A stretch of DNA of 55,548 bases, taken from positions 1 to 55,548 of IMG/VR virus record IMGVR_UViG_3300038466_000036; one strand, written 5' to 3'. The notes beneath the pieces are model-generated. The model made no database searches. It saw only the letters and a program-made list of their open reading frames with translations, and was not told the origin of the DNA. Origin of the DNA: a virus. The position numbers and the translations under genes were made by a program. Shown here piece after piece: positions 10,921-43,436 of the stretch (within the stretch, counting starts at the first letter, position 1; every line of letters begins with the position of its first letter).

Positions 10921-11589
10921 TTATTCATCGAATTGTGAAAATATACTTTCAGAAACTGTGGAATGTTCTTTAGCGTGGTCTTTATACTTGTCATATAACT
11001 TCTTTCCACCATATCCAAGACCAGCAACAGTAGCAGTCCCGAGGGCGGTTATAGCTCCGTATTTGCCTGCTTTCCTGGCAGTCTTACCTGTCTTGGTCAA
11101 TGCGTTCTTAACCTTCGGATATTTCTGAAGTATATCTTCCACTGTTTCAACAGGATGTTTGATCTTTTTCATTCCAGATTCTATAGAGGTTTTTGCTTTT
11201 CCAGAAATGTAATCTGAAATCATAGGTCTTACTTCCGATCTGACCAATTTCAAAATAGTATCCCGTGTACCAATATCACCATACTTCTTATCTCCAAGTT
11301 TTCTGATATATTCGGGAAATGAGAATTTACCCTGTAAATATTCATTAGTAATATTCTGCGCGGTCTGGCTTTTAATTTTTGGGAGTTCTTCCTGTACTAC
11401 CATGTCAATCATATGATCTAAATTTCTGGAGAAAATCTCGTTTTTTTCAAGATCTAACAGTTTAGACCATATATCCTCAAAAGAACCACTAAAGAATTTT
11501 CCAAGTAATCTTTCATCTTTAGGAAATATCGATTGTATAGCCGTTAACGCGCCTTGGGATTCGTTCAAAAATGTTTGTACATAATTCAT
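10921..11589 (-). CDS. tagged helical protein with C-terminal membrane segment, 222 aa
   Basis: I place the start at the second ATG (11589), with AAAGGA twelve bases before it; the ATG at 11610 lacks a ribosome site. From this start the product opens MNYVQTFLNES, matching the shared tag that ends in [IL]-x-E. The body is helical and charged; near the C-terminus is a Gly/Ala-rich hydrophobic stretch (GAITALGTATVAGLGYGG) that may insert in a membrane. It lacks the paired cysteines of the related tagged family. It precedes the tape measure gene in the operon. Packaging into the head is an inference from the tag. Confidence 0.6.
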   Translation of the reverse strand: MNYVQTFLNESQGALTAIQSIFPKDERLLGKFFSGSFEDIWSKLLDLEKNEIFSRNLDHMIDMVVQEELPKIKSQTAQNITNEYLQGKFSFPEYIRKLGDKKYGDIGTRDTILKLVRSEVRPMISDYISGKAKTSIESGMKKIKHPVETVEDILQKYPKVKNALTKTGKTARKAGKYGAITALGTATVAGLGYGGKKLYDKYKDHAKEHSTVSESIFSQFDE

Positions 11590-11628
11590 AACGAAAATAC
11601 GTCCTTTCATTACGATAGAATTTATAAT

Positions 11629-12198
11629 TTATTTGTATTTGTTTACCATCTTTGATAAACGGCTTACTTCTTTATGTAATTCTCCATTGGATGGATCCGC
11701 ATCAAGAGCATGTTCAGCCAATCTTAATTGTGTAATATAATAATTTTTTCTACATGCGGTATATTTATCGCCGGAATAATTATTACATACTTTATTCATC
11801 TCTTCATGCATCTTTTTATGTAAATACGCATATGCGGCAAGAACAGTGGCTGTTACAGGTATGGCTACCGACGCGGTTCTTGCCATATTGATAAACCGTT
11901 TCTTTTTGAATAATGTATCTAAGTCGCCCACCCGAACATCGGGTTTAACCTCCTCTAAACCAAGTATCGACTTAACTCCTTTTAAAATTGATCCTAATTC
12001 TCCGAACAAAGGACTTTCCAGTTCGGCTTTCGGTTTTTTCTTTAAATTAGCTTTATAAAATTCTTTAGCGCTTGAATATGGTCTTTCTGTATTCGGATTT
12101 ATCTCCTGTGTAACATCCTTCTCGATTTCTCCAATCTTGGCTTTAACATCAGCCATATCTTTTTTCCACCAATCGGCAATACCTTCGGAAATAAACAT
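11629..12198 (-). CDS. tagged dicysteine membrane protein, 189 aa
   Basis: Begins MFISEGIADWW, a member of the tag set, though the protease-site Glu is replaced (IAD). A polar region of about 100 residues is followed by a membrane helix (ASVAIPVTATVLAAYAYL), then C-x10-C, then a helical tail with DADPSNGELHKEVSRL. The last part aligns by eye with five other proteins between 36 and 42 kb. Function unknown. The shared architecture suggests a paralogous family of small membrane-active proteins that may be packaged with the DNA. Confidence 0.65.
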   Translation of the reverse strand: MFISEGIADWWKKDMADVKAKIGEIEKDVTQEINPNTERPYSSAKEFYKANLKKKPKAELESPLFGELGSILKGVKSILGLEEVKPDVRVGDLDTLFKKKRFINMARTASVAIPVTATVLAAYAYLHKKMHEEMNKVCNNYSGDKYTACRKNYYITQLRLAEHALDADPSNGELHKEVSRLSKMVNKYK

Positions 12199-12202
12199 GT
12201 GT

Positions 12203-13132
12203 CTATTGCTCCTTAAATTTTAAACTGTTTATGAGTTTTATGTTTCCGGAATTCAAATTGACTGAATTGAAAATACATATAATTTCACTTGGAAAAATCA
12301 TTTCCTGACCAGGGGTGGTAAAAGATAAAAGGTTTTTTACCCCCATATCATCATAAGTTTTTTCATATAAATGTAATAAATTTAAATATACTTTTTTCAT
12401 TCCGGGTTCTGAAACAGAACTGTTTTGTGTTATTACCCGAAATGGTAAATAAAACAGACTAAGATAAAGATCAGCATTTTTCGGATCTGTTACTGTAAGA
12501 AATAATTTTTTCCATATATTGAAAGTTCCAATAACATTCGGCTGATGTGTAAAATTACTGTCGTTTAATTTCGATACTTTTATAATCGCGTCCGAAATAT
12601 CTTCTTCCTCTAAGGTTCTTAAATTTTTACTTATACCGTTAAAAATGGATTTATAAAACGGGATCAGTACAGATTTGAGATTAATATCCATAAACGTTTT
12701 CCATTCCATCACAGAACATAGATGGGTTAGTTCATGAATAAGATAAGGCCCTAAATCCCGCATTACATTACCAAACAAATTGACATTCTCATCAAGAACA
12801 ATAGCTATTTGTTTATCCACTACAGAAATATATCCAGCATAACCCTTTTTAGGATCTCTATGGTTAAAATCCCGCCATCTGGTTCCTATAAAGTTAAACA
12901 GCCCACCATCCTCATATCCTATAAGTATAATTTGTTTATCCATACCTTCCATGATTTTCTTATAGATTTTGGAAATGGATTTATCTGATGAAAGGACATT
13001 TAGAACGTGATTTTCTATCCGTTCGTTTGATTTTATTTTCGTCCCGTCTATTATACCTATAGGACTGAGGTTGAATGGTATTAAGTGGACAAATTCATCT
13101 AATAAAACATCGTAAGAAATTGAATTGCTCAA
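12203..13132 (-). CDS. HExxH metallopeptidase-like protein (TTG start)
   Basis: The frame continues to an ATG at 13147, but that ATG overlaps the ribosome site: GGAGG lies eight bases before a TTG at 13132, and the late promoter motif ends two bases upstream of the ATG. I therefore choose the TTG, giving 309 residues. Around residue 135 is YLIHELTHL, the zinc-binding HExxH motif of metallopeptidases. A third zinc ligand is not obvious. It sits directly downstream of a late promoter, between terminase and tagged small proteins. It could be a virion or maturation protease, or have lost activity. Confidence 0.55.
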   Translation of the reverse strand: MSNSISYDVLLDEFVHLIPFNLSPIGIIDGTKIKSNERIENHVLNVLSSDKSISKIYKKIMEGMDKQIILIGYEDGGLFNFIGTRWRDFNHRDPKKGYAGYISVVDKQIAIVLDENVNLFGNVMRDLGPYLIHELTHLCSVMEWKTFMDINLKSVLIPFYKSIFNGISKNLRTLEEEDISDAIIKVSKLNDSNFTHQPNVIGTFNIWKKLFLTVTDPKNADLYLSLFYLPFRVITQNSSVSEPGMKKVYLNLLHLYEKTYDDMGVKNLLSFTTPGQEMIFPSEIICIFNSVNLNSGNIKLINSLKFKEQ

Positions 13133-13148
13133 AATTAATTCCTCCATA

Positions 13149-13164
13149 TTTTTATAATTTGTCC
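13149..13164 (-). promoter_or_regulatory. late-type promoter motif GGACAAATTATAAA
   Basis: Minus-strand copy of the motif, only about 20 bases from the TTG start of the HExxH gene, implying a very short leader. It lies in the gap after the terminase stop and would drive the operon running down through the tape measure gene. Confidence 0.65.
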
Positions 13165-13183
13165 TTTTGATACTTACTTATAA

Positions 13184-15004
13184 TTAGAATTTCCTAAACA
13201 CGTTATAATTATCGACTATCGTTGTAGGATCAAAACAATTTCCGGCGTACTTCTCGAAGTTATCTCTAATGAGTTTATCGAGTTTATCCATCTCTTTATT
13301 CACATTTTTAGTATCCAAATGAATCATTCTATTATCAGCGTTAAATCCTTGTAACCAGGAATCATTATTCTCGCCTATATTGTTTTCCACATCTTTTGCA
13401 TCCATCTGTTCCGGAGCATTATTAATCGATGTGGACATAACCGATTGGGAATGTACTATGGTTTCTTTAAGGTACATTCTTGCATAACAACAAAAAGCAT
13501 AAGCCATTACCAAGTCGTCTGTATATCCAAAATCAGCCTCTACCTTTTCAGACTTACTTCTCGAACTCTGATTTAAAACAAGTCCTGTAAGTTCCATGGC
13601 AAGACCTTCGGATTTTATACTATGTACATTTTCCACAACATATTTATATAATGCGTCTATTATCAACGGTCTATACTTAGTGTTGTTATTTATACCAGGA
13701 ACAAACATTTTCTTTCTTGGGACTGACGAGTTTCCCTTATTGACCTTTTTTCTCATCCGAGAATCGACTTTTTTCTCCTGCCATTTTCCATATACATTAT
13801 ATGAAAACAAAGCATCATCATACATCTCTTCACACACCTGATTACCACAGGAGTTGTTTTCTATTAAAAGCAGATTCTTCGGGACAAGTTTGGCGACCGC
13901 CTTCACAACATCAACGAATTTCTTTACGGTAAGTTTTCCTCTAAATTCAAGAATCTGATCCATATTTTCATAATCAAGAACTTGTATGGTTGAAAAATCA
14001 CTTCCATACTCTGTAGCTGTATCAACACCTATAAGATAGAATTTATCTTTATTTACTTCCGCATACTGGTAGATATACGAATCCTCATTTATCCTAATTT
14101 TATGAATAATATTACTTTTAACAGATTGGAGTGTTGTATAAATATGCTCCGGAAAAATACCCCCCTCGGGAACAAATTGTAACTCAAGTTCCTGGGCTAT
14201 TTTCTTGGGATTATTTCCTAAAATTTCACATTGGTTTCTATACCAGTCTGGGTCGTTAGCAAAAGCCGGAATTTCTTTCCAATGTACCTTTTGAGGTTTC
14301 CATAATCCATCCGGATTTATCGTGGATTGTGTCCATCTATCAAAAAACCATTTACCAATACCTTCAGTTCTATTTGGAGTCGATAATACAATGGTTCCAA
14401 ACGGAATATTATTAATTCTGGCATCCATATGTCCTTTAGACATGGCAGGACCGACACCTTCCCATGCCTTGTCCATATTAATTATATGTGCAGCCTCATC
14501 TATTATCAGTATCGTAAGGGTTTTACCCCGGAATACAGCACCAGGATTCTGAGGGGAGACAGCGGCAGACCACAACTGACATCCTGTGGATGTTTTAAAA
14601 CTTTTCGCATTTTTAAATCCACCCTTAACAGGACTAAAATCCGGAGTCATCCACTTTGGCAGTTTTTCCAGTATATCAATACATTTTCTGTTAAAATCAG
14701 CAGACTCATCCGCGTTTCTGGATATGATACCCATAACCACATTCTTATAAAATGTAGCCATGTGAGCAACAATAATCTGCGAAGCAGTAGAAAATCCTGT
14801 CTGTCTCGATTTTAATATTGTAAGATAATGATACTTGTTAAACTCATTTATTACTCTTCGTTGGGCATCGTGTAAGCAACATAATTGATCTCGCCCTCCT
14901 ATGGGAAGATAGACATATTTTTCCGCCCAATAAATTAAATCGTTCTTACATTTCAACCATTCCTGTGCTCTTAGTATATCCTCGTGTGTTATATTTTTTC
15001 CCAT
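13184..15004 (-). CDS. terL: terminase large subunit
   Basis: 606 residues, the usual size for T4 gp17-type packaging motors. The N-terminal ATPase has a variant Walker A around residues 64-74 (LKSRQTGFST), Walker B with catalytic Glu (ILIIDEAAHI), and a coupling motif STPN. The C-terminal RNase H-like nuclease has GVDTATEYGSD, a central LLIENNSCG and a late Asp in ADFGYTDDLV. It cuts and pumps DNA into the prohead through the portal vertex. The small subunit and portal genes are not recognised in this window. Confidence 0.95.
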   Translation of the reverse strand: MGKNITHEDILRAQEWLKCKNDLIYWAEKYVYLPIGGRDQLCCLHDAQRRVINEFNKYHYLTILKSRQTGFSTASQIIVAHMATFYKNVVMGIISRNADESADFNRKCIDILEKLPKWMTPDFSPVKGGFKNAKSFKTSTGCQLWSAAVSPQNPGAVFRGKTLTILIIDEAAHIINMDKAWEGVGPAMSKGHMDARINNIPFGTIVLSTPNRTEGIGKWFFDRWTQSTINPDGLWKPQKVHWKEIPAFANDPDWYRNQCEILGNNPKKIAQELELQFVPEGGIFPEHIYTTLQSVKSNIIHKIRINEDSYIYQYAEVNKDKFYLIGVDTATEYGSDFSTIQVLDYENMDQILEFRGKLTVKKFVDVVKAVAKLVPKNLLLIENNSCGNQVCEEMYDDALFSYNVYGKWQEKKVDSRMRKKVNKGNSSVPRKKMFVPGINNNTKYRPLIIDALYKYVVENVHSIKSEGLAMELTGLVLNQSSRSKSEKVEADFGYTDDLVMAYAFCCYARMYLKETIVHSQSVMSTSINNAPEQMDAKDVENNIGENNDSWLQGFNADNRMIHLDTKNVNKEMDKLDKLIRDNFEKYAGNCFDPTTIVDNYNVFRKF

Positions 15005-15012
15005 GTTTATAC

Positions 15013-15693
15013 CTACTTTATAATTGCATCCGTTCTTTTAAATTGTTTCAGGTTTGATATCTCCATAGCCATCAGACCATTTCTACATAGGGCGTTTATT
15101 ACTGTATGCGCCCCCCTATACCGCGCTGGAGATGTATCGAGCTTTATTTTGCCCGGTGGCGGCGGATTTCCTCCGAGTACGTATTTATCCGAATATTTAT
15201 TAAGGTTATCGTTTATCCAGTCATAAACTTCATTTAACGGAAAATCTTTTTTCAAATAAAAATATACATGATAACCTTCGGCGGAATTTACAATTTTATG
15301 ACTATTAGCTGCCTTTGTAAAATCTTTATCGTTTAGTAATTCAGACACGCAATTTTTCATATCCTGCTCATTAACATTATTTCCTTTGTCTATATCTATA
15401 ATCATATAATTAGTCATTAGTTCTCTTTCCACCGCGATCGACAGTGTTCGACCAGATACAACATAATCATAATTAAATTTATCAAGAGTCAAATATCCAT
15501 ATTTTGTTTTCCGTTTGACTATTGTATCATTTAGCTTGGGAACTATAAATAAAAGAATAAATCTAAGATCAATCTCGTTAACAATTTGTTTTTTATATTT
15601 CTGATAATGATTCCAAATCTGAAGTTCCGTTAGTCCCAGGGAATAATAGTTATTTTTAACAACAACCGAAGTTGGATTTTGTGGATATGGCAT
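15013..15693 (-). CDS. archaeo-eukaryotic primase-like (AEP/LigD-type) small protein
   Basis: 226 residues. Three motifs in order resemble the AEP polymerase core: MIIDID (paired Asp), NSAEGYHVYF (Gly-x-His motif) and IKLDTSPARYRG (third Asp). This pattern occurs in LigD polymerase domains and phage primases. The protein is short, so it may be a minimal catalytic domain or a derived, non-catalytic version. It lies tightly between terminase and an unknown protein in a packaging and tail operon, an unusual place for a primase. The fold call is by motif only. Confidence 0.45.
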   Translation of the reverse strand: MPYPQNPTSVVVKNNYYSLGLTELQIWNHYQKYKKQIVNEIDLRFILLFIVPKLNDTIVKRKTKYGYLTLDKFNYDYVVSGRTLSIAVERELMTNYMIIDIDKGNNVNEQDMKNCVSELLNDKDFTKAANSHKIVNSAEGYHVYFYLKKDFPLNEVYDWINDNLNKYSDKYVLGGNPPPPGKIKLDTSPARYRGAHTVINALCRNGLMAMEISNLKQFKRTDAIIK

Positions 15694-15694
15694 A

Positions 15695-16765
15695 TTAACA
15701 TATCCTGTTCTTTAGATAAATAGTTATATAATGACAAAAAAACATTAATAATTGTTGCTCGTATATATTTCTATAAAGATATGAATTAGGTAACTTTCTA
15801 ATCAAATTTAAAATCTGTTCCTTTACAGAATAGTCGTTTATTTTCATACCACTGATCATCTTGCGTATTAAATTGTTTCTTTTAGTCTCGACACATACAT
15901 TTTTTAATCCGGACGGCGCGGCCATTCTATGTGTAAGTATCAATATGAACCGCACGTCTTCCTTAAATTCAGATCTTAACAAATCCGCCATTATGGAAGA
16001 ACCGATTTCTTTACGTATTCCTGATTTTGCAATTGCCTGTTGTGCCGCAACTGTGTCATTCTGTCCATATACACACATATTCATAGCGATTTTATCTATA
16101 GCCATTTCTATTCTATCCATGATTTCAGGATCTTTTCCACCAGATTTATCCGGTGTTGCCGATACCTCATAATAAATTTCCGCAAACGATCTTATAGACT
16201 GCGTAATTCTCGTTCTAAGCATATATATAATCTTTACCAAATCATCGTCCGTGAATGTCGTAGAAGCTAAAATAGCTTTGTTTTTCTTGAATTCTTCGAC
16301 CGACAGATATTTGAGAGAAGATGCCACCCCGCCATGAGCCTTATATAAATGCTTATGGGATAACTGATCCAATGCTACAAGAAATGCATCCGGGTTACAA
16401 AATTGAAAAAACTTATGCATACTGCTCGCATGGAATTTTAATGTAATCAGATTAAACCAATAATACGCATAAGCATCCTGACCTTTTCTTAATAAAGCGA
16501 TAGTACACATAATAAGAAATATTGTAAAGTCATCATTTAATAACGAAAAACTTTTATATTTTTCACTTATGTTTTTATTTTTAAATTCATTTACATGTAC
16601 CCTGTTTATATGGACACTTTCCAGTAAATCGTTATAATATCTATTAAGTTTTCCGTAATAACACGCCTTGTCTGAGTTTACCATTTCACTACCACTAATC
16701 ATCAACATTTTTTTATGTACTTTTTCATCGTAATATATTGGCGGTAAATAAGTTAATTTAGCCAT
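15695..16765 (-). CDS. hypothetical protein, 356 aa
   Basis: I do not recognise it. It is mainly helical, with hydrophobic helices (FTIFLIMCTIALL and, near the end, QLLMFFCHYITIYL) too short for confident membrane spans. It lies one base from the primase-like gene and 14 bases from the gp6-like gene, inside one operon with structural genes, so it may be a tail or head completion protein. No catalytic motif seen. Confidence 0.6.
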   Translation of the reverse strand: MAKLTYLPPIYYDEKVHKKMLMISGSEMVNSDKACYYGKLNRYYNDLLESVHINRVHVNEFKNKNISEKYKSFSLLNDDFTIFLIMCTIALLRKGQDAYAYYWFNLITLKFHASSMHKFFQFCNPDAFLVALDQLSHKHLYKAHGGVASSLKYLSVEEFKKNKAILASTTFTDDDLVKIIYMLRTRITQSIRSFAEIYYEVSATPDKSGGKDPEIMDRIEMAIDKIAMNMCVYGQNDTVAAQQAIAKSGIRKEIGSSIMADLLRSEFKEDVRFILILTHRMAAPSGLKNVCVETKRNNLIRKMISGMKINDYSVKEQILNLIRKLPNSYLYRNIYEQQLLMFFCHYITIYLKNRIC

Positions 16766-16779
16766 TCATATCCTCCCAT

Positions 16780-19323: not shown

Positions 19324-19364
19324 ATTTTATTACCTACCTTTACCTCGTTTTGGGTATATAGTAA

Positions 19365-19401
19365 AAAATAGGCCGGATATGTGGTATATCCGACCTATTT
19401 T
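19365..19401 (-). terminator. intrinsic terminator
   Basis: CGGATAT/ATATCCG and AAAATAGG/CCTATTTT form a 15-bp stem with one mismatch and terminal A and T runs. It lies after the HAD gene stop (19413) and before the gp6-like gene start on the minus strand. The A/T ends mean it could work on either strand. Confidence 0.8.
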
Positions 19402-19412
19402 AATACAAGTCA

Positions 19413-20177
19413 CTACCGTCTTAAAAGAGCGGCCAATCTCGGAGAAAAACCTTCCGCAAAATTTTCAAATGTATCCTCAATATCAGCAGGTTGCCTGGGG
19501 CCGTTATAAGTGCTCTCTCCGGCCTCATCCATGTCATCTACCACTCTGCGATATCCGTATTTAATGGTAGGAAGTTCCTGCGAATTGTAGAAGTTGTCAG
19601 CCGGATCTCCAGCTACATCTTCGGTGTATCCTGCCTCGTCCGGTCTCTCGAATCCTTTGGGACCGGCGACAGAACCTTTGGCGTAAATAGGCATGGCGTT
19701 TATATCATCGTCATTCAAACCATCCTCACCAGCGGCCTCACCTTCATATTCCCACTCATCATCGCCAATTTCCATTTCACTAAGCATCTCATTTAGAACG
19801 TCGCGATAAAAACCCATAGTTGGTCCTCCAGTTACATTTTCTTGAATAATGTGTGAATATTTACTCAACAGCTTTCCAGTATTCTTTTCTACCCCAACCG
19901 CCCTATCGTCGATAAACAACACTATATCCGGAGTTTTAACATTAGTAACTTCAAAATCACCCAATCCATTTTTTCTTAACCATTCTTTTACAACAGGAAT
20001 ATTCTTTTTATTATTTGCCCTGGCTGTAAAAATTTTTATCTTATATCCCTGTGATTGAAATTTGTTTATTAAATCCACCATAGGTTTTATAGGAGCGCCA
20101 ATCTTATTAAATCCCGCATATCCCGTTTCATAAAATGCCAGAGTTCCGTCAAGATCTACTGCTATACTTTTATTCAT
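19413..20177 (-). CDS. HAD-superfamily phosphatase with acidic C-terminal extension
   Basis: The N-terminal 130 residues have HAD motifs: DLDGT (nucleophile Asp at about 8), FTARAN (motif II Thr) and VLFIDDRA (motif IV acids). The remaining 120 residues are a low-complexity, acidic extension not typical of soluble HAD enzymes. HAD proteins hydrolyse phosphate esters, often of nucleotides or sugars. It overlaps the upstream pyrophosphatase-like gene by 8 bases, suggesting linked function in nucleotide or phosphate metabolism. The extension may attach it to another protein. Confidence 0.8.
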   Translation of the reverse strand: MNKSIAVDLDGTLAFYETGYAGFNKIGAPIKPMVDLINKFQSQGYKIKIFTARANNKKNIPVVKEWLRKNGLGDFEVTNVKTPDIVLFIDDRAVGVEKNTGKLLSKYSHIIQENVTGGPTMGFYRDVLNEMLSEMEIGDDEWEYEGEAAGEDGLNDDDINAMPIYAKGSVAGPKGFERPDEAGYTEDVAGDPADNFYNSQELPTIKYGYRRVVDDMDEAGESTYNGPRQPADIEDTFENFAEGFSPRLAALLRR

Positions 20178-20709
20178 TTTGGCTACCCAGATTAAAATAT
20201 TTGTTTGTAATCGGAGTATTAAATTTATTATTTTTTAACCATAATTTAAAGTCGTCAATAGATAATCTATGAACCGACATTACATTATTCCAATCTCCAG
20301 AATAACAATCAAAGTATCCTTCAGTAGCATCTCTTAATGTATTAAAGAATAAAAGAATTTTATGTTCGTCAAAAGAATTTTTAAAATTTATCTGATTGAT
20401 CACATATACGTTTTGGGATTCCACATCCGGCCCTAAATATACATCCAAATGATCTCCATCTTTTCCCAAAGTATTCTTAATATATCCATAATGATGTTTT
20501 AATACATTATAATTTAGTTTACCATCAGGATTTTTCCAGAATCTTTTAGATCCTCTCGGATTTTCAATAGCTATATCCAACCCTAAAACCCGAATGTGCC
20601 CTTTTTTATAATTGCCGGGTTCTATCTGATTTTCGGTAGGACGATTGGAAATATTCGTAGAAGTTGCCGTTTGATTAGCTTTTTGATCCATAATAGATTT
20701 ACTTATCAT
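20170..20709 (-). CDS. inorganic pyrophosphatase-like (InPase, polyvalent-protein type) domain protein
   Basis: The frame is open to a TTG at 20763, but an ATG at 20709 overlaps the previous stop and has AAGGTGG upstream, giving 179 residues that begin MISKSIMD, similar to the shared tag. The domain reads HYGYIKNTLGKDGDHLDVYLG, followed by VYVINQINF and DEHKILLFF. This matches the InPase-like domain found in phage and plasmid polyvalent proteins, which can be delivered with DNA. Acidic positions of the GDHLD motif are intact. Tagging and the polyvalent connection both suggest delivery to the cell, which is inference. Confidence 0.6.
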   Translation of the reverse strand: MISKSIMDQKANQTATSTNISNRPTENQIEPGNYKKGHIRVLGLDIAIENPRGSKRFWKNPDGKLNYNVLKHHYGYIKNTLGKDGDHLDVYLGPDVESQNVYVINQINFKNSFDEHKILLFFNTLRDATEGYFDCYSGDWNNVMSVHRLSIDDFKLWLKNNKFNTPITNKYFNLGSQNE

Positions 20710-20956
20710 CTTCGCTCTTTCCACCTTCACGCTCGGTGGATATTTGGCGCCTGTATTGTTCAATCCGTCTATCAGTCTCCTTTATATCTATCATAATAGC
20801 ATCCATACCACGACTATCCCGTTGTAGTTTAAGATTGGCATAATCAATCTTTAATTGAGATAATCTGTTTTCAGCTTTAGCTTTTTGTAATCTCAAATAA
20901 TTGATCCACTGCTTTCTTCTTTTAGTAGACTCATTTAAAATAAAATAACTGATCAT
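20699..20956 (-). CDS. tagged coiled-coil protein, 85 aa
   Basis: Opens MISYFILNES, a clear member of the shared tag ending ILNE-S. The rest is a charged coiled coil rich in Arg, Lys and Glu. It overlaps the InPase-like gene by 11 bases. No known family. Confidence 0.6.
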   Translation of the reverse strand: MISYFILNESTKRRKQWINYLRLQKAKAENRLSQLKIDYANLKLQRDSRGMDAIMIDIKETDRRIEQYRRQISTEREGGKSEDDK

Positions 20957-20973
20957 TTCTTCTATGCCCCCTA

Positions 20974-21252
20974 TTAAATTTTGTATCTTAAAGGAGCAGG
21001 ACTATATCCAGGTTTCTTCAATTGAGTCTTTTGTAAATTTTCCTTTGCGTTATTTTTTATCTCTTGGTGTTCTCTCTTTTTCTCTTCCATTTGTTGAATC
21101 AACAGTTTCATTCTATTAATCTTTTCATCGACAATTCTAATATTACTATCAGCATTTACCATCTGTCTTTGCATCCCTGTCTGTCTGGAGAGATTATAAT
21201 CCGGAGCATCTGTAACAGACACTGCTTCCATAATTTGTTTACTTATACTCAT
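20974..21252 (-). CDS. tagged coiled-coil protein, 92 aa
   Basis: Opens MSISKQIMEAV, with IME fitting the [IL]-x-E tag end. The central part is a coiled coil (IRIVDEKINRMKLLIQQMEE), and the C-terminus is basic and Pro-rich. It overlaps the upstream tagged gene by 14 bases. No known family. Confidence 0.6.
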   Translation of the reverse strand: MSISKQIMEAVSVTDAPDYNLSRQTGMQRQMVNADSNIRIVDEKINRMKLLIQQMEEKKREHQEIKNNAKENLQKTQLKKPGYSPAPLRYKI

Positions 21253-21517
21253 CTGGATTTTTCTCCCGTTTCTTTTTCACCCATCCCGCCAGAGCGGTTC
21301 TTTTATTCTCCGCTTTGGCAGCAACATCCGGATGTTTATTTTTATTGAATATCTTCAGGGTGTTTAATTGTTTGGATAATTCGTTCCACGACTTCCCACC
21401 TCTTAACTGATCTTTATACTTTTCGAGCGAATCATCCAGTCCAAGCCCAAGATCTCCAGGTTTAATTTCAATCCTTACTTTTTCTTCGTTTAGGATCTTT
21501 TCAGAAATGAATGTCAT
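21239..21517 (-). CDS. tagged small protein, 92 aa
   Basis: Opens MTFISEKILNEE, one of the best matches to the shared tag. The body is polar with a basic C-terminal helix (KKKREKNPDEYK). Its ATG shares a base with the stop of the upstream baseplate gene at 21517. No known family; packaging is inferred from the tag. Confidence 0.6.
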   Translation of the reverse strand: MTFISEKILNEEKVRIEIKPGDLGLGLDDSLEKYKDQLRGGKSWNELSKQLNTLKIFNKNKHPDVAAKAENKRTALAGWVKKKREKNPDEYK

Positions 21518-28090: not shown

Positions 28091-28387
28091 ATGCCTGTAA
28101 TAGTTATCTGTCCGGGATGCGGTAGTCGTGTGTACGATAATAGATTCTGTGAAATCTGCGGAACCTTTTTAACCGATTCGCCCACAGGCACTCCTCCTAT
28201 CGTGTGCGCGTTTTGTGGAGTATTTGCGCACAAAGAGGAAACCCATTGTGGACAATGCAGTTCGCCGTTATATAGGATATGTGGCGGTTGCGGGAAGTTC
28301 TGCTCTTTCCGCGTCAACTATTGCGGATTTTGCGGAAAACAGCTAATCGAAGGACAAGTGAAAAACCAAATCCTTGCCGGTGTTTAA
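28091..28387 (+). CDS. zinc ribbon protein with three paired-Cys modules
   Basis: 98 residues with six C-x2-C pairs: CPGC and CEIC, CAFC and CGQC, CGGC and CGFC. These make three consecutive four-Cys zinc ribbons. Such small proteins bind nucleic acid or RNA polymerase. First gene after the AT box at 27991, so probably expressed early. The partner is unknown. Confidence 0.8.
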   Translation: MPVIVICPGCGSRVYDNRFCEICGTFLTDSPTGTPPIVCAFCGVFAHKEETHCGQCSSPLYRICGGCGKFCSFRVNYCGFCGKQLIEGQVKNQILAGV

Positions 28388-28414
28388 GGTCAAACCGGAA
28401 CGAAGGAGGCTTGC

Positions 28415-29197
28415 ATGCAGGACGCTCAAAAAGTCGACTGGATGATTATTTCCAATGGCACAAAAGAGGTCATCGGAAACATGACTGCCGCCCGTAAGGG
28501 TGTGCAGGACGGAATCCTCGAACTCGGGTTCCCGAGTTTCCTGGATCCGGACAGCAATTTCTGTGACGAGACGATCGCCGAGGCCCGAAAGCTTCGGATT
28601 CGGCAGATCAAACTCGCCACGTTCCCCGATCGTGCCGGGAGGACATGGGCCGTCGAAAAACCCAAGGAACGCGGTTACGAGGTTCTCGGAGAAATCCGGA
28701 GGAACCTGGAAGCGGCGGCCATGACGGTGTGCAACGCCATCGGGTACAAGGCGTGGGTGGTCGAAGAGGCCATGCACACACCCATCTACCAGATCGGCCC
28801 GGAAGGGTTTTCCGCTTTTCTGCACAAAAAGGGGATTACCAAAACCCCGGCGGAAGCCATTGGGTGGGTGAAGGACAAGCTCCGTCCGAATTGGCTCCCG
28901 GACGAGGGCGCCATGTACAAAATGGCGGTATCCGGACCCGTCGAAAGACGGACGGTTTTTACCGCCGAGGAAACCGGAGAGAAAATCGAAACCCCGGAAT
29001 TCGGGGAGTCGTTATATCTAGTTGACCCGGATCCGAGACGCCGGGACAAATCCATCTTCGGCGGCCCTCTCAGGCTTACGATGGCGGGGGTCATCATGAC
29101 CCCGAAGTCGCCGAAAGCCGGAAAGGATACGATACTTCTCTTCCAGTCCCTTGGGTTGGATGTTGTCCAAGGTTCCCGTTCGTCCTACATTCACTAA
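28415..29197 (+). CDS. GC-rich hypothetical protein, 260 aa
   Basis: GGAGG lies six bases before the ATG. The product is soluble, with alternating helices and strands, and has no motif I recognise. Base composition is clearly more GC-rich than neighbouring genes, with C- and G-ending codons favoured. The truncated gene at 55465, after an identical promoter box, has the same look. This could reflect recent transfer or codon selection for strong expression. It ends just before a strong terminator. Confidence 0.7.
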   Translation: MQDAQKVDWMIISNGTKEVIGNMTAARKGVQDGILELGFPSFLDPDSNFCDETIAEARKLRIRQIKLATFPDRAGRTWAVEKPKERGYEVLGEIRRNLEAAAMTVCNAIGYKAWVVEEAMHTPIYQIGPEGFSAFLHKKGITKTPAEAIGWVKDKLRPNWLPDEGAMYKMAVSGPVERRTVFTAEETGEKIETPEFGESLYLVDPDPRRRDKSIFGGPLRLTMAGVIMTPKSPKAGKDTILLFQSLGLDVVQGSRSSYIH

Positions 29198-35072: not shown

Positions 35073-35101
35073 ATAATTTCCTTTATATTATTATTTGTTT
35101 T

Positions 35102-35494: not shown

Positions 35495-35507
35495 AATAAT
35501 ACTCCTT

Positions 35508-36215
35508 TTAAATAAATTCTTTATAATCTTTAAAATATTTTTTTAAGAATTTATCTTTTGCTTTTTCTGACAATTGTGTCATTTTACACGTTTTTCTAAT
35601 TACTGATACCGGAGTAATCATTTCCCAATCACCCTTTATAGTTAAAATAATGGTATTCTCTATTTCAGATCTTGTAGCTCCATTCTTGGAGAGGAGTTTC
35701 CTTCTATTGGAATCAAGCCTTCTCATCAATGGCTTATTATACATAGTCCAGTCTATTTTATTCAATACCGTAGAAGACATAATATCTCCGGAACCGAATA
35801 GTTTAAGATATATACGGTATACATCAACAGGTTCTTTTGTAATATCCATAGCAAACGAGTATTGTCCGCCAACAAATAAAGATCCGTTATTCAACATTTG
35901 TAACCCGTTAATCAACCAATTACCGGAAAACCAGTCGTCGCTTCCACATATCATAACCGCGTCAGGAGAGAATTCCCTACATACTTCCAAACCTTTGTTC
36001 ATCTTATAAGACAGCATATTCTCAAAGGGCACATATTCTACCCAATCTTTACTTTTATAATTAGTATCTGTATAATTATCGAAGTCGCCCACTAAGACTA
36101 TTTTTTTTAAATTTTTATTAAAATGTTTAACCAATCTATCTATACATTTTACAACTATTTTTTCCCTCCCAAAGTGTGTAGGTATCAGGATACACGCTTT
36201 CTCATGAGTTACCAT
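35508..36215 (-). CDS. glycosyltransferase (GT-A type)
   Basis: 235 residues opening CILIPTHFGREKIVVKCIDRLVKHF, the nucleotide-sugar-binding start of GT-A enzymes. MICGSDDWFSGNW supplies the metal-binding acidic motif. It lies near a hexapeptide acyltransferase and a GT-B-like gene, interrupted by tagged genes. The target may be virion protein, host surface sugar or DNA; the sequence does not tell. Confidence 0.7.
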   Translation of the reverse strand: MVTHEKACILIPTHFGREKIVVKCIDRLVKHFNKNLKKIVLVGDFDNYTDTNYKSKDWVEYVPFENMLSYKMNKGLEVCREFSPDAVMICGSDDWFSGNWLINGLQMLNNGSLFVGGQYSFAMDITKEPVDVYRIYLKLFGSGDIMSSTVLNKIDWTMYNKPLMRRLDSNRRKLLSKNGATRSEIENTIILTIKGDWEMITPVSVIRKTCKMTQLSEKAKDKFLKKYFKDYKEFI

Positions 36216-36248
36216 TTTCTTTATGGTACTCCCTTGTTTTTTATTACC

Positions 36249-36674
36249 TTAATCGAGTTGAGCTAAACGCTTACGTAATTTATCCACTCTTTTTTTTCTA
36301 TCATCAATTTGTTTACCTATAAGTTCCGCCTGATTTTGAGAAAGAAACATTTTCTCCATTTTTTGTTCTAACTGTCCTATAAGATTAATTTCTACTCTTA
36401 TAGAACATTCGAGTCTCGATTTTTCATCCGGTTTTCTATCACACAAAGAAAGATTATATTTATGATCTTTATATAATCCAATCAGAAATCCAAGACCAGT
36501 GGCAAATAAAGCCGTTCTGTTTCGACCACCAAGAGTCAATCCTATACCTGCTCCCACGGCTGTTCCCAGTTTGGTGTAACTGTGCGGGGAATTGGTTAAT
36601 CTATGAAGGAACGATTTTTTCTCTTGGTCTTCGTTATCTTCGGATTCAGTTAGAATGAGTTCGGAAATGAACAT
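36249..36674 (-). CDS. tagged dicysteine membrane protein, 141 aa
   Basis: Opens MFISELILTES, an excellent tag with ILTE-S. A Gly-rich membrane region (GTAVGAGIGLTLGG and TALFATGLGFLIGL) is followed by C-x11-C and a helical tail. The cysteine spacing and tail align with proteins at 11629, 37153, 37839, 40012 and 41430. Confidence 0.65.
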   Translation of the reverse strand: MFISELILTESEDNEDQEKKSFLHRLTNSPHSYTKLGTAVGAGIGLTLGGRNRTALFATGLGFLIGLYKDHKYNLSLCDRKPDEKSRLECSIRVEINLIGQLEQKMEKMFLSQNQAELIGKQIDDRKKRVDKLRKRLAQLD

Positions 36675-36677
36675 AAT

Positions 36678-37139
36678 TTAATAACCTCCTCCCCGCTCGG
36701 GTGGAAAAACTTTATTAAGTACAGTATTCGCTCCAATTACAGCAAGTCCTATACCGCCTGCTTTCTTGAGTCTTTTCATATTCCGACTTTGAGGTTTTGC
36801 TGTTCCTGTTGTCTCTGAAGAAGGTTGTGCTTCGGGCTTAGGTTGAGCAATCTTTGATTTGACTTTGTTTATAAATTGTCCTGTCCGGGATGGTGGATTA
36901 ACCCTGATTTTATTTATCTCCGATTTCAACCTTTGGATTTCATCTAATCTTCCATTGGTGATTGTTGGATCAATTTTAGCATTGTTTCTTTTAGCCTCAT
37001 CCATATATTCTTGTATCCTCTTAATTCGATTATTAAGATCTTTTATTCTCTCCCAGGTTCGATGTGCTTGATCATACGCTCTTTCCGGACTTCGTTCTCT
37101 TTGCCAAATTTCATTTATTATCGATTCAGAAATAAACAT
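36678..37139 (-). CDS. tagged membrane-anchored protein, 153 aa
   Basis: The frame opens to 37223, but AAGAGG lies just before the ATG at 37139, and the product from there starts MFISESIINE, an ideal tag. This also removes the overlap with the upstream gene. A coiled-coil region of about 60 residues and a Pro/Gln linker lead to a short membrane helix (AGGIGLAVIGANTVL) near the C-terminus. It has no paired Cys. Confidence 0.65.
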   Translation of the reverse strand: MFISESIINEIWQRERSPERAYDQAHRTWERIKDLNNRIKRIQEYMDEAKRNNAKIDPTITNGRLDEIQRLKSEINKIRVNPPSRTGQFINKVKSKIAQPKPEAQPSSETTGTAKPQSRNMKRLKKAGGIGLAVIGANTVLNKVFPPERGGGY

Positions 37140-37152
37140 TTTATTATTCCTC

Positions 37153-37833: not shown

Positions 37834-37838
37834 ATCTG

Positions 37839-38456: not shown

Positions 38457-38475
38457 TTATTTATATACTCCTAAA

Positions 38476-39063
38476 TTATTGTTCTATCAATTTGTCGACA
38501 AACTGTAACATATTTTTAGATCTGTCACGAAGTCTCCTTACAGGACTACCGATATATACTCCCCACGGAGCAAGACTTTTAATAATCAGACTATTGGATC
38601 CAACCGCAACACCTTCACCAAGTATTACTCCCGGAAAAACTATACATCCGGCTCCCGTTATCGTGTGTTCTTTAAAATGAATTACTCTTTTATCGACGCA
38701 TGTATATTCTTTTGGAACTGTCGGACCCATAAGATATTCTCCGGAATAATCATCTGACATACTAAACAGTTTTCCGCCATATGATACGTTAGAGAAATTA
38801 TCCAGAATTATTCCACCACCTCCAGCCAATATACATTGACTTGCTATATGTATATAATTGTTAATTTCTATAAATCCTGGAGTTATAGCTGTTAATATAC
38901 ATTGGCTGTCTATTCGTACATTATTTCCTATAGATATATTCTCTAATCCAACTATGGTACATGATTTAGAAATCATTACATTTTTACCAACACTTTTAAA
39001 TCCAAAGTTGACTAATTCATCCTCCCTGTAATAACCTGTATTAAAAGGATTGTTGTTTTCCAT
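38476..39063 (-). CDS. hexapeptide-repeat acyltransferase
   Basis: 195 residues with left-handed beta-helix repeats of [LIV]-G-x4 type: SVGKNVMISKSCTIVGLENISIGNNVRI near the start, GAGCIVFPGVILGEGVAVGSNSLI and WGVYIGSPVRRL near the end. The pattern matches sugar O-acetyltransferases (WbbJ/MaeB-like). It likely acetylates a sugar made or transferred by the neighbouring glycosyltransferases. Confidence 0.82.
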   Translation of the reverse strand: MENNNPFNTGYYREDELVNFGFKSVGKNVMISKSCTIVGLENISIGNNVRIDSQCILTAITPGFIEINNYIHIASQCILAGGGGIILDNFSNVSYGGKLFSMSDDYSGEYLMGPTVPKEYTCVDKRVIHFKEHTITGAGCIVFPGVILGEGVAVGSNSLIIKSLAPWGVYIGSPVRRLRDRSKNMLQFVDKLIEQ

Positions 39064-39084
39064 TGTTTAATTTTACTCCGTTTA

Positions 39085-39873
39085 TTATATATTTAACCAC
39101 TCGTATTTTCTATCGAGGGAATTATATACCTGTTCGGCTAATTCTTTATTTGGTTTACCAATATTTATCACTTCATTAAGTATTGATTCACATATATCAT
39201 CAGCATTTTTCCAGTTTATTACATTCGGTAAATCTATAATATTAGATACACATTTTCTACCTCTTAATCCTAAATCTATTACAGATGTACATCCTTTTGC
39301 AAACTCACTAAGCATTAACCCTATAAATGATTCGTTATAAAATTGATCACATACACCAGAATACCATTCATTCATAGAATAAAACTTATCAGAATATACA
39401 AAACTATAAGGTATTTTCTTCTTCTTTAATTCTTCCATTAATATCCGAATGTGTTTAGTAGGTTTTATCTTGGGACTATGATTATACAAATATATTTTTG
39501 CTCCTAATGGTGTAGGATTGATTTTATTCATATCTATACCGGTAAGACGATCCTCTCTTCTCCCTTCAGGAAGTGTTTTAATAACATTTATACCATTTTG
39601 TATTAATTTATCATATCCTATTCTTAACGCTGTTGTGTGTATAATATCTATATCTTTAAAATATTTAGGACTGCCAAACCGTAAAATATCCGCGCCACAC
39701 CACCGTAAAACAACCTTTGATTTATGACTTTTTATAAATTTTAAATCTTTCGGAGTATAACAACCATACACCACAACCGGTTCTGTTTGAGATATATAAG
39801 GTCCAACCCCAATATGATGCAAAAAATCAAAACTTGAAATTGTATCTGAAATATAACCTTGTTTTACTCTCAT
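39085..39873 (-). CDS. GT-B-like glycosyltransferase
   Basis: 262 residues. VVLRWCGADILRFG, IHTTALRIGYDKLIQNGINVIKTLPEG and FAKGCTSVIDLGLRGRKCVSN resemble GT-B glycosyltransferases, with the last segment in the acceptor/nucleotide-binding half. Directly upstream of the acyltransferase in the same direction. The N-terminal half looks shortened relative to typical GT-B enzymes, so activity is uncertain. Confidence 0.55.
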   Translation of the reverse strand: MRVKQGYISDTISSFDFLHHIGVGPYISQTEPVVVYGCYTPKDLKFIKSHKSKVVLRWCGADILRFGSPKYFKDIDIIHTTALRIGYDKLIQNGINVIKTLPEGRREDRLTGIDMNKINPTPLGAKIYLYNHSPKIKPTKHIRILMEELKKKKIPYSFVYSDKFYSMNEWYSGVCDQFYNESFIGLMLSEFAKGCTSVIDLGLRGRKCVSNIIDLPNVINWKNADDICESILNEVINIGKPNKELAEQVYNSLDRKYEWLNI

Positions 39874-39946
39874 AAGTTACACCAATATTTAAACAAGGGG
39901 TTAACAAATTAGTAATAAATTAAATTACTTATGGGTATATACAAAA

Positions 39947-39982
39947 AACAAGGAGGTGGATATCTCTACCCACCTCCTTGTT
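39947..39982 (-). terminator. intrinsic terminator
   Basis: AACAAGGAGGTGG pairs with CCACCTCCTTGTT, a perfect 13-bp stem. On the minus strand it is followed by a T run and lies after the stop of the 429-residue gene. Confidence 0.9.
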
Positions 39983-40011
39983 AAACACATTATATCAAAT
40001 TGAATAAAAGA

Positions 40012-41301
40012 TTAAGCGGAGTATTCCTGAACCCTGCGGGTCCACTTCTCAACTTCCTTCTGAAGCGGAGCGGACTCGGGATTCTGCCTCGCGGCAGACT
40101 GAGCGTTCTTGAGTGCTTCCATCGCGGCAGCCTTGAGGCACGCTTGTTTCTCATCTCCACTCATACCCCTACAAACACCGGAGTGTTTTTTCCACACAAG
40201 AGCGGCGATAGTAGCAAGTGCGGCAACGCCAACAGCAGGACGACCGGTAATCACTCCGACCTTGGTCTTCCATCCACCACTCTGCCAAGCGGTCTTTCGA
40301 GAAGCAGCGGCTTTCTTTACTCCACCGTAACCAGTTTGAACGCCAGCCCAAGCTTTTCCAGGAGCGCCCTTAACTCCGCCTGCTCCGGCTTGAATACCGG
40401 CCCAGGCTTTTCCAGGAGCGCCCTTAACAGCCTCCCACTTGCCTTCCGCGCGTTTAGCAAGAGCAATGCGCATTCTGCGTATAACCGAAGGGTAAGTTCT
40501 TTCAAAATCGGCTACCAATTGTCTTTTGTCGTTCCGTGCTTTTAAAAGCCCGGCTTCATCTTTAGCTGCTTTGGCGGCTTTAATCCGTTTATTTACTTCT
40601 TCCAACTTCGGTTTAAGCTCGGCGCGCGCAGCCTCTTTAGCAGCTTTAGCGGCAGCAGACTCGGCTTTTTTCGCGGCTTTATCCGGATCCCATTCTTCTC
40701 CAACGATACCTTCCGCTTCCAAAATCAATTCGGCAGCAGTAGACAATCCTTCGGCTTCCGCCAACAGGTTGTAATCAAGTACCATCTCGGCAAGATCAAA
40801 ATAATTAGGAACTATATTAGATCCAAATTTCTCAAGGCAATTCTGCGCCTCGGCAACGACATGTTTCATATCGGAATCGGAAAGATCGTATCCCTCTTTA
40901 ATCTCTGTAAGCGCCTCATAATCGAAACCATCAGCGCCAATAGCCATGGCGGTCTCAAATATAATCATAGGCACATGAACGGCCCTGGAACTTGGGTTAC
41001 CCCACTGTCCGGTGATCTGAATCATAGGAACGATGTTCTCAACCACGAAAGTACCAATCTGCTCTTCTGAAAGATTGGCGGATTCAATAATTCCGAGGTG
41101 TTTGATTTTGGTATCGGCGTCAACACCCTCAGACTCCAGAATCACATTGCGGACAGACGCTTTGGCGGCATTCTCATAGAGCATATCCAAAGAGATGTAC
41201 ACATCGGGACCAGGGCCTTCCTCCAAAGTCTGATATGTATTAACACCTTCCATAGTCTCAGCGGACTCCTGAATTAATTGATCAATAAGGCTGTACGACA
41301 T
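40012..41301 (-). CDS. tagged dicysteine membrane protein with Ala/Lys-rich core, 429 aa
   Basis: Opens MSYSLIDQLIQES, tag with LIQE-S. Residues about 40-200 form a folded, acidic region; about 205-330 are Ala/Lys-rich helices with two copies of a KGAPGKAWAG repeat; then a membrane helix (VGVAALATIAALVW), C-x10-C (CRGMSGDEKQAC) and a helical tail with RQNPESAPLQKEVEKW. It has its own late promoter and terminator and more GC-rich codons than its relatives, all signs of high expression. It may be an abundant internal head protein. Scaffold-like function is another possibility. Confidence 0.65.
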   Translation of the reverse strand: MSYSLIDQLIQESAETMEGVNTYQTLEEGPGPDVYISLDMLYENAAKASVRNVILESEGVDADTKIKHLGIIESANLSEEQIGTFVVENIVPMIQITGQWGNPSSRAVHVPMIIFETAMAIGADGFDYEALTEIKEGYDLSDSDMKHVVAEAQNCLEKFGSNIVPNYFDLAEMVLDYNLLAEAEGLSTAAELILEAEGIVGEEWDPDKAAKKAESAAAKAAKEAARAELKPKLEEVNKRIKAAKAAKDEAGLLKARNDKRQLVADFERTYPSVIRRMRIALAKRAEGKWEAVKGAPGKAWAGIQAGAGGVKGAPGKAWAGVQTGYGGVKKAAASRKTAWQSGGWKTKVGVITGRPAVGVAALATIAALVWKKHSGVCRGMSGDEKQACLKAAAMEALKNAQSAARQNPESAPLQKEVEKWTRRVQEYSA

Positions 41302-41402
41302 TTAGAAATTCCTCCCTTAACAAGTTAAACAACCAAGGTTTGATTCTTTACCTGAATATTTATATATTTGTTTGTTTGAATTGATCACCTATCTATATAT
41401 CC

Positions 41403-41416
41403 TTTAAAATTTGTCC
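41403..41416 (-). promoter_or_regulatory. late-type promoter motif GGACAAATTTTAAA
   Basis: Minus-strand copy about 100 bases before the 429-residue tagged gene. Confidence 0.65.
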
Positions 41417-41429
41417 TGAATCTCATTCC

Positions 41430-41831
41430 CTATTTTAGATCCAATTCTTCGAGTTTTGTTATCAATTTATCCATTTTTTCTTCATATTCCTTCTTTTTTT
41501 CTTTTATTATTATACTATCGGGATATTTATTCGATAGATCTTTTAGTCTTTTAATCGAATCCTCATATATCTTTATTTGACACAATAACTTTGCAGATTC
41601 AGTAGGAATGCGAAAACAATCCCGAATGTTATGTTTTCTATTTTTTATTATAGAATGTAAAAGAAAACCAGCGCCCAACACTACACCGGTAGCGGCGGCT
41701 TCAGATGCTTTTTCTGGGAGTTTTGCCGAAAAATGACTCGCAAAACGGGACATTGGTTTTCGAAATGTCGAAAAGGATATTTCCGATAGATTGCCCCGAT
41801 TCATCATAATCGATTCGGATATAAATGGCAT
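41430..41831 (-). CDS. tagged dicysteine membrane protein, 133 aa
   Basis: GGGAG lies eight bases before the ATG at 41831; the TTG at 41846 overlaps that site, so I reject it. The product opens MPFISESIMMN; the usual Glu at the tag end is absent. A hydrophobic segment (ATGVVLGAGFLLHSII), then C-x11-C, then a coiled-coil tail (YEEKMDKLITKLEELDLK) follow, matching the dicysteine family. Confidence 0.62.
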   Translation of the reverse strand: MPFISESIMMNRGNLSEISFSTFRKPMSRFASHFSAKLPEKASEAAATGVVLGAGFLLHSIIKNRKHNIRDCFRIPTESAKLLCQIKIYEDSIKRLKDLSNKYPDSIIIKEKKKEYEEKMDKLITKLEELDLK

Positions 41832-41889
41832 CTTACTTACTCCCAATTACCGTTTAAAATTATTACTTTATATCTTATATGGTAAAAAT

Positions 41890-41936
41890 GTCTGCAAGGA
41901 GAAAACCATAAATAAATATGATCTCTCCTTGCAGAC
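41890..41936 (-). terminator. intrinsic terminator after major capsid gene
   Basis: GTCTGCAAGGAGA pairs perfectly with TCTCCTTGCAGAC (13 bp). On the minus strand it is followed by ATTTTTACC and lies 13 bases after the capsid gene stop. Confidence 0.88.
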
Positions 41937-41948
41937 TTATATCATTGG

Positions 41949-43436
41949 TTAGTTATTGGGGTAGTTATTCAATGTATCAACGATATTCAGAATTCCTATA
42001 GCTTCCGGACGCACAACCCTTGTTGCGTAACGGGTCATAACTGTCAGGCTGGGGATAGGTCCAAGAGGATAAGGCATTAACAATGCAGGTACGTAAGGAG
42101 CATAAACAAACGCGGCGCGCAGAAGCTCATTAGACCTGTACTTGACAATGACTTTACCCTTCGGAATAACCGAAGATACCAATACTTTCCACAATCCGCC
42201 TTGAACGGTGGCTGAACGGTAACCAACTTCTCCACCATCAACAGAGTTACCAACAAGGTCGAAACCATTGAGGCTCTGGAAGATAGAAGCGTCGAGCGGG
42301 TTACAAGCCAGGGTATTCGCGGAACCCATAAGCGAACTGTTGTAAATCTGAGCAGACAGAGTATTAAGTGTAGGAATAATATTCTCGTACCATTGCTTGC
42401 GTCCGAAGACGAAAGTGCCGGGAGGATTAAGATCGAATGTCGCTGTATGAGAAGTAGAATAAGAAGAAGAAGTAACGGCGGTAAGAAGCTTATTGATAAT
42501 TTCCCTGTCGATATCAAGAGCAAGCTGCTCGCCAATCATATTGATAATCTGCGCCTGGAGGTTAAGATCGAACAGTGCCTTGGCATCCTGCTCGAACGTA
42601 TTGGTCCATTCAGCGGAGATTCTACGATCGACGGTTTTGAAGCTCAGTTTCTCCATAACGAACCGGAGAGTAGGATTAATCCTGTTCTCTTCAAGAGAAG
42701 CATAAGCCTCGTAACGAACCGCCAGAATATTTCCACCAACTGAAGAGGTGGCGAGAGTTCCAAGCTCATAATCAACATGGCCGGAAAGAACATCACTGCC
42801 AACAGTCAAGGAAATGGTCTGGGAGAAGTTGCCATTCACATCGGGAATTACAGAGCAGACGATCCAGGCAGTTCCGTCATATACCGCATTGATATTGAAA
42901 TCCTTCTCAATGTGCGCGTTGTCGGATGTGATGCCGGGGCCGATCTCGGTAAAGATGTTGTGGATGGTATTACAATTGGCCTCTCCAGGAGCGGCGATAG
43001 GAACACCAGGACCCTTGGAGATATCAACATCTACCGAGGGGAACTGATAAGGATGACCTGTATCGACGTAACGGCCAAAATATCCACGAATAAAGTATTG
43101 AACTGGATCTGGCTTATCGATCGGCATAACATTGACAAGCTCTTTCGCAATCAGCTTCGGATAGAATACGCGAAGCAAGGGAAGAGAAAGCGCCTCATAA
43201 GGATGACGAATCTGGGTAACTGAATTCTCCATAAGTTTGATTCTGGTGTTATCAGCCAATTCCCTAAAATCAGACTTTCCCTCTTCGCTCAACCCCTCGG
43301 AAAGAGAGGTGATATATTTAGAGAAGTGTCTGGAATCTCTGATAATTTCCTCAAATCCCCTCATATCCCGTGGATCGTAACCGGTCAAAGTCGTAGTCCT
43401 GTCGTAAGACTCCTTAAGAAAATGTTTTGTAGACAT
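41949..43436 (-). CDS. major capsid protein (T4 gp23-like)
   Basis: 495 residues, similar to T4 gp23. HK97-fold hallmarks: an N-terminal arm leading to MPIDKPDPVQYFIRGYFG, the central spine region with KLSFKTVDRRISAEWTNTFEQDAKALFDLNLQ, and a C-terminal LLMPYPLGPIPSLTVMTRYATRVVRPEAIGIL. It begins MSTKHFLKES, which fits the shared tag with FLKE-S; further [LI]-x-E sites (SLSE, LMEN) before residue 75 could be the maturation cleavage site, as gp23 is cleaved near residue 65. Codon use is GC-shifted, as expected for an abundant product. Confidence 0.88.
   Translation of the reverse strand: MSTKHFLKESYDRTTTLTGYDPRDMRGFEEIIRDSRHFSKYITSLSEGLSEEGKSDFRELADNTRIKLMENSVTQIRHPYEALSLPLLRVFYPKLIAKELVNVMPIDKPDPVQYFIRGYFGRYVDTGHPYQFPSVDVDISKGPGVPIAAPGEANCNTIHNIFTEIGPGITSDNAHIEKDFNINAVYDGTAWIVCSVIPDVNGNFSQTISLTVGSDVLSGHVDYELGTLATSSVGGNILAVRYEAYASLEENRINPTLRFVMEKLSFKTVDRRISAEWTNTFEQDAKALFDLNLQAQIINMIGEQLALDIDREIINKLLTAVTSSSYSTSHTATFDLNPPGTFVFGRKQWYENIIPTLNTLSAQIYNSSLMGSANTLACNPLDASIFQSLNGFDLVGNSVDGGEVGYRSATVQGGLWKVLVSSVIPKGKVIVKYRSNELLRAAFVYAPYVPALLMPYPLGPIPSLTVMTRYATRVVRPEAIGILNIVDTLNNYPNN

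Follow-up and report, generated by a model that had tools for sequence, protein, structure and literature searches.

Why should a dozen or so proteins of one virus, most of them unrelated to each other, begin with nearly the same ten residues? The question is raised by IMG/VR record IMGVR_UViG_3300038466_000036, which we analysed complete (55,548 bases, hereafter the window) and which is probably part of a larger, T4-type phage genome. The initial annotation of this DNA had listed thirteen genes whose products share a short N-terminal tag and had likened it to the capsid targeting sequence (CTS) of T4 internal head proteins. All thirteen starts are present on the minus strand with the N-termini as quoted (Table 1; genes are named by their start positions), and the tag follows the consensus M-(x)-F-I-S-E-x-I-[IL]-x-E and variants of it. 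We consider it likely that the tag is an expanded, phage-private analogue of the T4 CTS.

The shared N-terminus is real, about ten residues long, and is carried by mostly unrelated bodies. Exact FISE occurs near the start in six of the 41 minus-strand window genes that formed the comparison set (12198, 21517, 36674, 37139, 37833 and 41831), against an average of 0.0075 expected from shuffled window N-termini, and in none of 1,113 comparison genes (1,067 from two other huge phages and 46 from phage BpSp, with starts in the comparison phages placed by a simple ribosome-site rule). A regular expression like the motif first proposed gave seven matches, all on listed genes, where 0.07 was expected. 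When residues 2–16 of 50 window genes were scored pairwise with BLOSUM62, 20 pairs reached a score of at least 24, compared with one after shuffling; the genes joined were 21517, 37833, 37139, 41831, 36674, 20956, 38456 and 21252 and, weakly, 20709 and 41301. Together with 12198, counted as a member through its exact FISE, the solid set comprises nine genes (12198, 20956, 21252, 21517, 36674, 37139, 37833, 38456 and 41831); 41301 and 11589 are probable members and 20709 is a weak one. Both 11589 and the capsid gene 43436 fail the pairwise test and enter only via F-L-x-E-S. Ribosome sites, cited earlier in favour of three adjusted starts, are good at 37139 and 41831 and weak at 11589 (AAAGGA ~12 bases upstream).

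BLASTP bore out the earlier statement that the bodies are unrelated except for one family with paired cysteines (the di-cysteine family). With this family reduced to one member, nine pairs were left, two of which join untagged genes; the 400 shuffles averaged 1.57 pairs, never exceeded 6, and in no case reached nine. The FISE serine is encoded by TCC, TCT or AGT among the tagged genes and their upstream DNA is dissimilar, indicating that selection acts on the protein. Spread of the leader as a copied DNA segment is ruled out by the codon differences.

In T4, the prohead protease gp21 cuts after L/I-X-E (PMC9026906). The claim that the window tags end in a site of this type at residues 9–12 holds for ten of the thirteen and fails for 12198, 20709 and 41831; the residue that follows is S, A or G in eight of the ten. 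The proximal I-S-E of six tags may offer a second cut site. In the T4 record the first residues are MKTYQEFIAE^A in both IPII and IPIII, MAKINELLRE^S in gp24, MELITELFDE^D in Alt and MLKEQLIAE^A in gp22; compared with the T4 sequence, the window tags agree in their second half and differ in their first. Ten residues of IPIII are enough for targeting, with positions 4 and 7 important for targeting and positions 8 and 10 for processing, and Asp at position 10 blocks processing while targeting is kept (PMC9026906). The protease gp21 itself carries LIE-9 close to its own start (PMC9026906).

We propose that the ~10-residue tag would bind the assembling prohead core and carry otherwise unrelated, mostly small basic proteins inside before the shell closes, after which a gp21-type S77 protease would in most cases remove it by cutting behind [LI]-x-E. 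Once released, the proteins would stay associated with the DNA and reach the next host along with it. The likely cargo would include an enzyme with an InPase domain, small basic proteins and proteins that combine a membrane segment with a di-cysteine hairpin; these last may have a role at the envelope as ejection proceeds or afterwards. Core binding, packaging, cleavage, ejection and all functions of the cargo are steps that we infer; we are less sure of cleavage at the distal site than of targeting, and less sure still of ejection. Several observations support the suggestion that the tag is an address label for the prohead: the Gp23-type capsid, an S77 protease and a T4-type portal encoded next to the relatives' capsid gene, the sites in register in ten of the thirteen tags, the small basic bodies, an InPase class that has been proposed to be packaged and injected, and a closely T4-like tag in the phage LR756511.

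The window capsid protein belongs to the Gp23 family (PF07068) and has its own clade-conserved N-terminus, which is related to the tag and resembles in form that of T4 gp24. IMG/VR searches with single capsid, terminase and sheath proteins found no close relatives, and only a capsid profile of three distant phages, which included two huge phages, led to four IMG/VR records (G001, G002, G003 and G004) whose capsid proteins are 45–47% identical. In all four, a portal-sized gene is followed by the S77 protease gene, then by small genes and the capsid gene. The protease scores above the PF03420 cut-off in G001, G002 and G004 and below it in G003 (E=2.7e-6), and the portal, whose identity was checked in one relative, matches PF07230 (L056). 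The relatives' proteases begin MSHFIIESAIFQEAK, MSHFFIESAIMQEAK, MSSFILESAIYQEAK and MGKLIIEGTVLAEAQ, three of them with the FIIESAIFQEA-like start M-S-x-F-[IF]-[IL]-E-S-A-I-x-x-E-A, and their capsid proteins begin MKELLQEVYKTTKK or similar.

What would the tag deliver? The tagged protein described as pyrophosphatase-like, 20709, is an InPase (PF18823, E=9.4e-44, 149 bits with a cut-off of 26.8) that carries the catalytic D-x-D-x-x-D motif as DGDHLDV and has phage homologues. InPase domains occur mainly in phage polyvalent proteins that are likely to be packaged in the virion and injected (PMC5512222), and one phage record labels an InPase-bearing protein 'internal head protein'. The N-terminus of 20709 pairs with that of 21252 in the homologue-free test. 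By analogy, MISKSIMDQ, with Asp for Glu, could be targeted yet uncut; this N-terminus may also be native to InPases. The isoelectric point (pI) lies between 8.5 and 10.3 in 11 of the 12 tagged non-capsid proteins, several of which are short and highly charged. Pfam and PHROGs scans of the tagged proteins gave nothing convincing beyond the InPase and the capsid protein.

Six window proteins form the di-cysteine family (12198, 36674, 37833, 38456, 41301 and 41831), in which a hydrophobic segment is followed by a cysteine hairpin with 10–12 residues between the cysteines. A structure model of 41831 has residues 1–51 disordered (predicted local distance difference test score, pLDDT, ~40) and three C-terminal helices at ~90. 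This helical bundle had no significant match in the PDB, and that of the 38456 model, likewise only a helical bundle, had none in a viral structure library. No match was found by tblastn of the family against a phage collection, and no relative of 41301 among GTDB contigs. Among the four relatives, five such proteins are encoded by G003, one by G001 and at least two, probably four, by G004; they have a hydrophobic segment, a C-x(7-12)-C helical hairpin and a second cysteine pair that the window members are without. A single profile-profile comparison of the two sets gave a probability of 91% (E=1.1e-6), and with the relatives' profile 41301 is the top match among the remaining window proteins (E=0.0073); window and relatives' proteins are thus probably one family by sequence. 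Two of the G003 genes lie within the portal-protease-capsid block; other genes of the relatives' family lie among tail genes. The family is conserved, sits among virion genes and is unnamed in every family library searched. Conservation of the tag in homologues had been set beforehand as a test of the prohead idea, and here the outcome was unexpected: the tag sequence is not kept, but the relatives' di-cysteine proteins carry N-termini of other kinds, MDKKELTLLSGIIVTES, MTSKDLKLLAGYLVMES or MSKMVDEYLQVLQDD, none of them FISE.

Several points weigh against head targeting. Neither an S77 prohead protease nor a portal was found in the 55.5-kb window, where a helicase gene occupies the position of the relatives' protease; the protease is therefore either located elsewhere in the unrecovered genome or absent. 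Besides the three tags that are without the distal site, the FISE group has S4 and I7 where IPIII has Y4 and F7, so that position 4 is unmatched and the hydrophobic position 7 alone agrees. The tagged proteins stand out only modestly in basic pI (p = 0.014), against a comparison group that was picked after the values had been seen. Relatives' di-cysteine genes also sit among tail and baseplate genes, and the head is thus not the sole possible destination. No other phage with the exact FISE tag was found in an IMG/VR search with a DNA pattern of ribosome site plus MFISExI, which returned five stretches with a single match each, in unrelated settings, that we judged to be chance. In T4 itself, the pairwise test detects IPII-IPIII only. 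The initial count of a dozen packaged proteins is also somewhat too firm, because the thirteen include the capsid protein, which does not count as cargo, because membership is weaker for 20709 and 11589, and because three tags have no distal site; the capsid-targeting interpretation beneath that count is supported.

Some of the evidence would also suit proteins that are themselves parts of the prohead core or scaffold, degraded or discarded after assembly, with the tag serving as a core-assembly peptide. In T4, gp21 cleaves gp22, gp67 and gp68, which belong to the same core (PMC9026906), gp22 having the start given above; short length and high charge are seen in several tagged proteins; and in L058 di-cysteine genes stand inside the portal-protease-capsid block, between portal, protease and scaffold. 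However, the InPase is an enzyme whose domain class has been proposed to be injected, and scaffolds seldom have membrane segments, and we regard this explanation as unlikely. Still less likely, in our view, is that the tag sends proteins to a place other than the head, either at a membrane or in the tail, whether its tube lumen, tape measure or baseplate. Four tagged genes are surrounded by baseplate genes, two are next to the gene for the tape measure, and several di-cysteine genes of G003 and G004 are found between tube, gp26-like and gp25-like genes; but six tagged genes are downstream of the capsid gene, late phage genes of every kind are intermixed, and the gp21-type form of the site and the likeness to head protein and protease N-termini favour the head. 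Finally, relics of one ancestral protein, or a short-length coincidence, with no targeting role are very improbable: six of the thirteen do belong to one family and the pairwise scores of 11589, 20709 and 43436 are weak, but the excess persists without homologues, synonymous codons differ, and the bodies have diverged past recognition where the tag has not.

Targeting to the prohead by a shared N-terminus may extend to other large phages. G001 and G003 have a small shared YLxxLxE set of 5 and 3 genes, with 0 of 763 and 0 of 1,273 matches at internal methionines. In LR756511 (595 kb) the common N-terminus is MKTFxEWLxxKE, close to T4 MKTYQEFIAE; a regular expression finds it on 77 genes, ~30 of them clear by eye, and since the pattern also occurs at 19 of 2,845 internal methionines, the 77 include chance matches. 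LR756508 (484 kb) has two shared N-termini, MKLTEKKLRKIIKEE and MKLKDLLxE, on ~40 genes together (L004, L016-L025), concentrated in genome parts that include head genes; MKLKDLLxE is carried by a large family of paralogues that have Y/F-R-G close to the start. A by-eye impression of ADP-ribosyltransferases, a kinase and a ParB-like protein among the LR756508 tagged proteins had no library support and was not used. The pairwise test gave no excess in phiM12 or Mel-JY01 and only AT-rich look-alikes in PA5oct, and in immuto (MW353177.1; 1803, 117587 and 118588) three genes begin with the CTS-like N-F-[DN]-L-[KR]-x-F-L-x-E-N. Given these phages and T4, extensive sharing is a trait of some large phages and not of all. 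We tentatively suggest, while stopping short of calling it probable, that large Gp23-capsid phages each mark unrelated proteins, up to dozens of them, with a private label specific to that phage; that the label co-evolves with the prohead core; that the cargo even of an uncultured phage can be listed from its sequence alone; and that conserved cargo such as the di-cysteine family switches label by phage. Two other shared starts were seen among the relatives: small STYWRGKGK proteins with a YLxxLQEA start in both G001 (L173 4223-4546) and G003 (L162 10162-10593), and several genes, mostly in one cluster, beginning M-K-x-K-x-x-F/Y-V-T-N-S-S-S in G004 (L146 473-10472).

Table 1. Tagged genes of the window, the capsid gene and its upstream neighbour. 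A caret stands before the residue that follows [LI]-x-E.
Coordinates	Strand	Product	N-terminus	Remarks
10921..11589	-	222-aa basic protein	MNYVQTFLNE^S	FLxES form, probable member; pI 9.2; Gly/Ala-rich C-terminal segment
11629..12198	-	189-aa di-cysteine protein	MFISEGI	exact FISE; without distal [LI]xE
20170..20709	-	179-aa stand-alone InPase (PF18823)	MISKSIMDQ	weak member; Asp in place of others' Glu
20699..20956	-	85-aa basic protein	MISYFILNE^S	
20974..21252	-	92-aa basic protein	MSISKQIME^A	
21239..21517	-	92-aa basic protein	MTFISEKILNE^E	
36249..36674	-	141-aa di-cysteine protein	MFISELILTE^S	
36678..37139	-	153-aa basic protein	MFISESIINE^I	pI 10.3; C-terminal hydrophobic segment
37153..37833	-	226-aa di-cysteine protein	MFISENIIKE^A	strong membrane segment
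37839..38456	-	205-aa di-cysteine protein	MSISLSYKILNE^G	structure model made
40012..41301	-	429-aa di-cysteine protein	MSYSLIDQLIQE^S	probable member
41430..41831	-	133-aa di-cysteine protein	MPFISESIMMN	without distal [LI]xE; structure model made
41949..43436	-	major capsid protein, Gp23 family	MSTKHFLKE^S	PF07068 E=1.4e-26
43479..43895	-	untagged 138-aa protein, scaffold candidate		just upstream of capsid gene; place and length match relatives' 137-138-aa gene

Some neighbouring genes of the window deserve mention. Directly upstream of tagged 12198 and 11589, a minus-strand gene (12203-13147) encodes a 314-aa protein with LIHELTHL, a zinc-peptidase-like HExxH motif, and no Pfam or PHROG match. 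The gene at 6270-10895 (minus strand) encodes a tape-measure-like protein of 1,541 aa that contains an M23 peptidase domain. Genes resembling those for sugar modification, one of which weakly matches a hexapeptide transferase, are interleaved with tagged ones on the minus strand (35508-36215 and 38476-39873), and two plus-strand genes, the first small and zinc-ribbon-like, occupy a G+C-rich island at 28091-29197 (~47% versus 33-40% around it).

If head targeting is correct, a ten-residue signature would list the head-borne proteins of an uncultured giant phage, which otherwise requires proteomics of a cultured phage; many unnamed genes would become candidate first-minute effectors, and the T4 rule would reach far beyond the T4 group and provide new delivery tags. 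Ten-residue capsid targeting is already known, and T-even internal proteins have already been identified by their signal (PMC12373910); the novelty lies in the phage's private tag sequence, in how many proteins carry it, in the di-cysteine family and in the differing labels among large phages. Among the open-licence papers searched, we found none that describes this.

Among known systems, the T4 CTS (IPI-III and Alt) with gp21 is similar in placing ~10 N-terminal residues on non-homologous proteins, in its basic cargo, in the form [FIL][ILM]-x-E followed by a small residue, in the Gp23-type capsid and in the S77 protease, which here is found in relatives. It differs in that the first half is FISE in the window and MKTYQE in T4, that at least nine and likely 12 tagged proteins lie in one 33-kb stretch whereas T4 has a handful, that the membrane and di-cysteine cargo family is unlike that of T4, and that the proximal I-S-E of the window tag is a possible site too. 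N-terminal parts of SPN3US and phiKZ head proteins are removed by a gp21-related protease (PMC5694885), but those propeptides are mostly >100 residues and the window tags ~10. The N-terminal 30 residues of P1 DarB suffice for capsid delivery (PMC9024508); the window tag is a different and short peptide. InPase-bearing polyvalent proteins share the Pfam family of the window InPase, which stands alone in the window. The uncultured huge phages LR756511 and LR756508 likewise place one short N-terminus on many unrelated proteins and have Gp23-type capsids and S77 proteases; their putative label sequences are other than that of the window.

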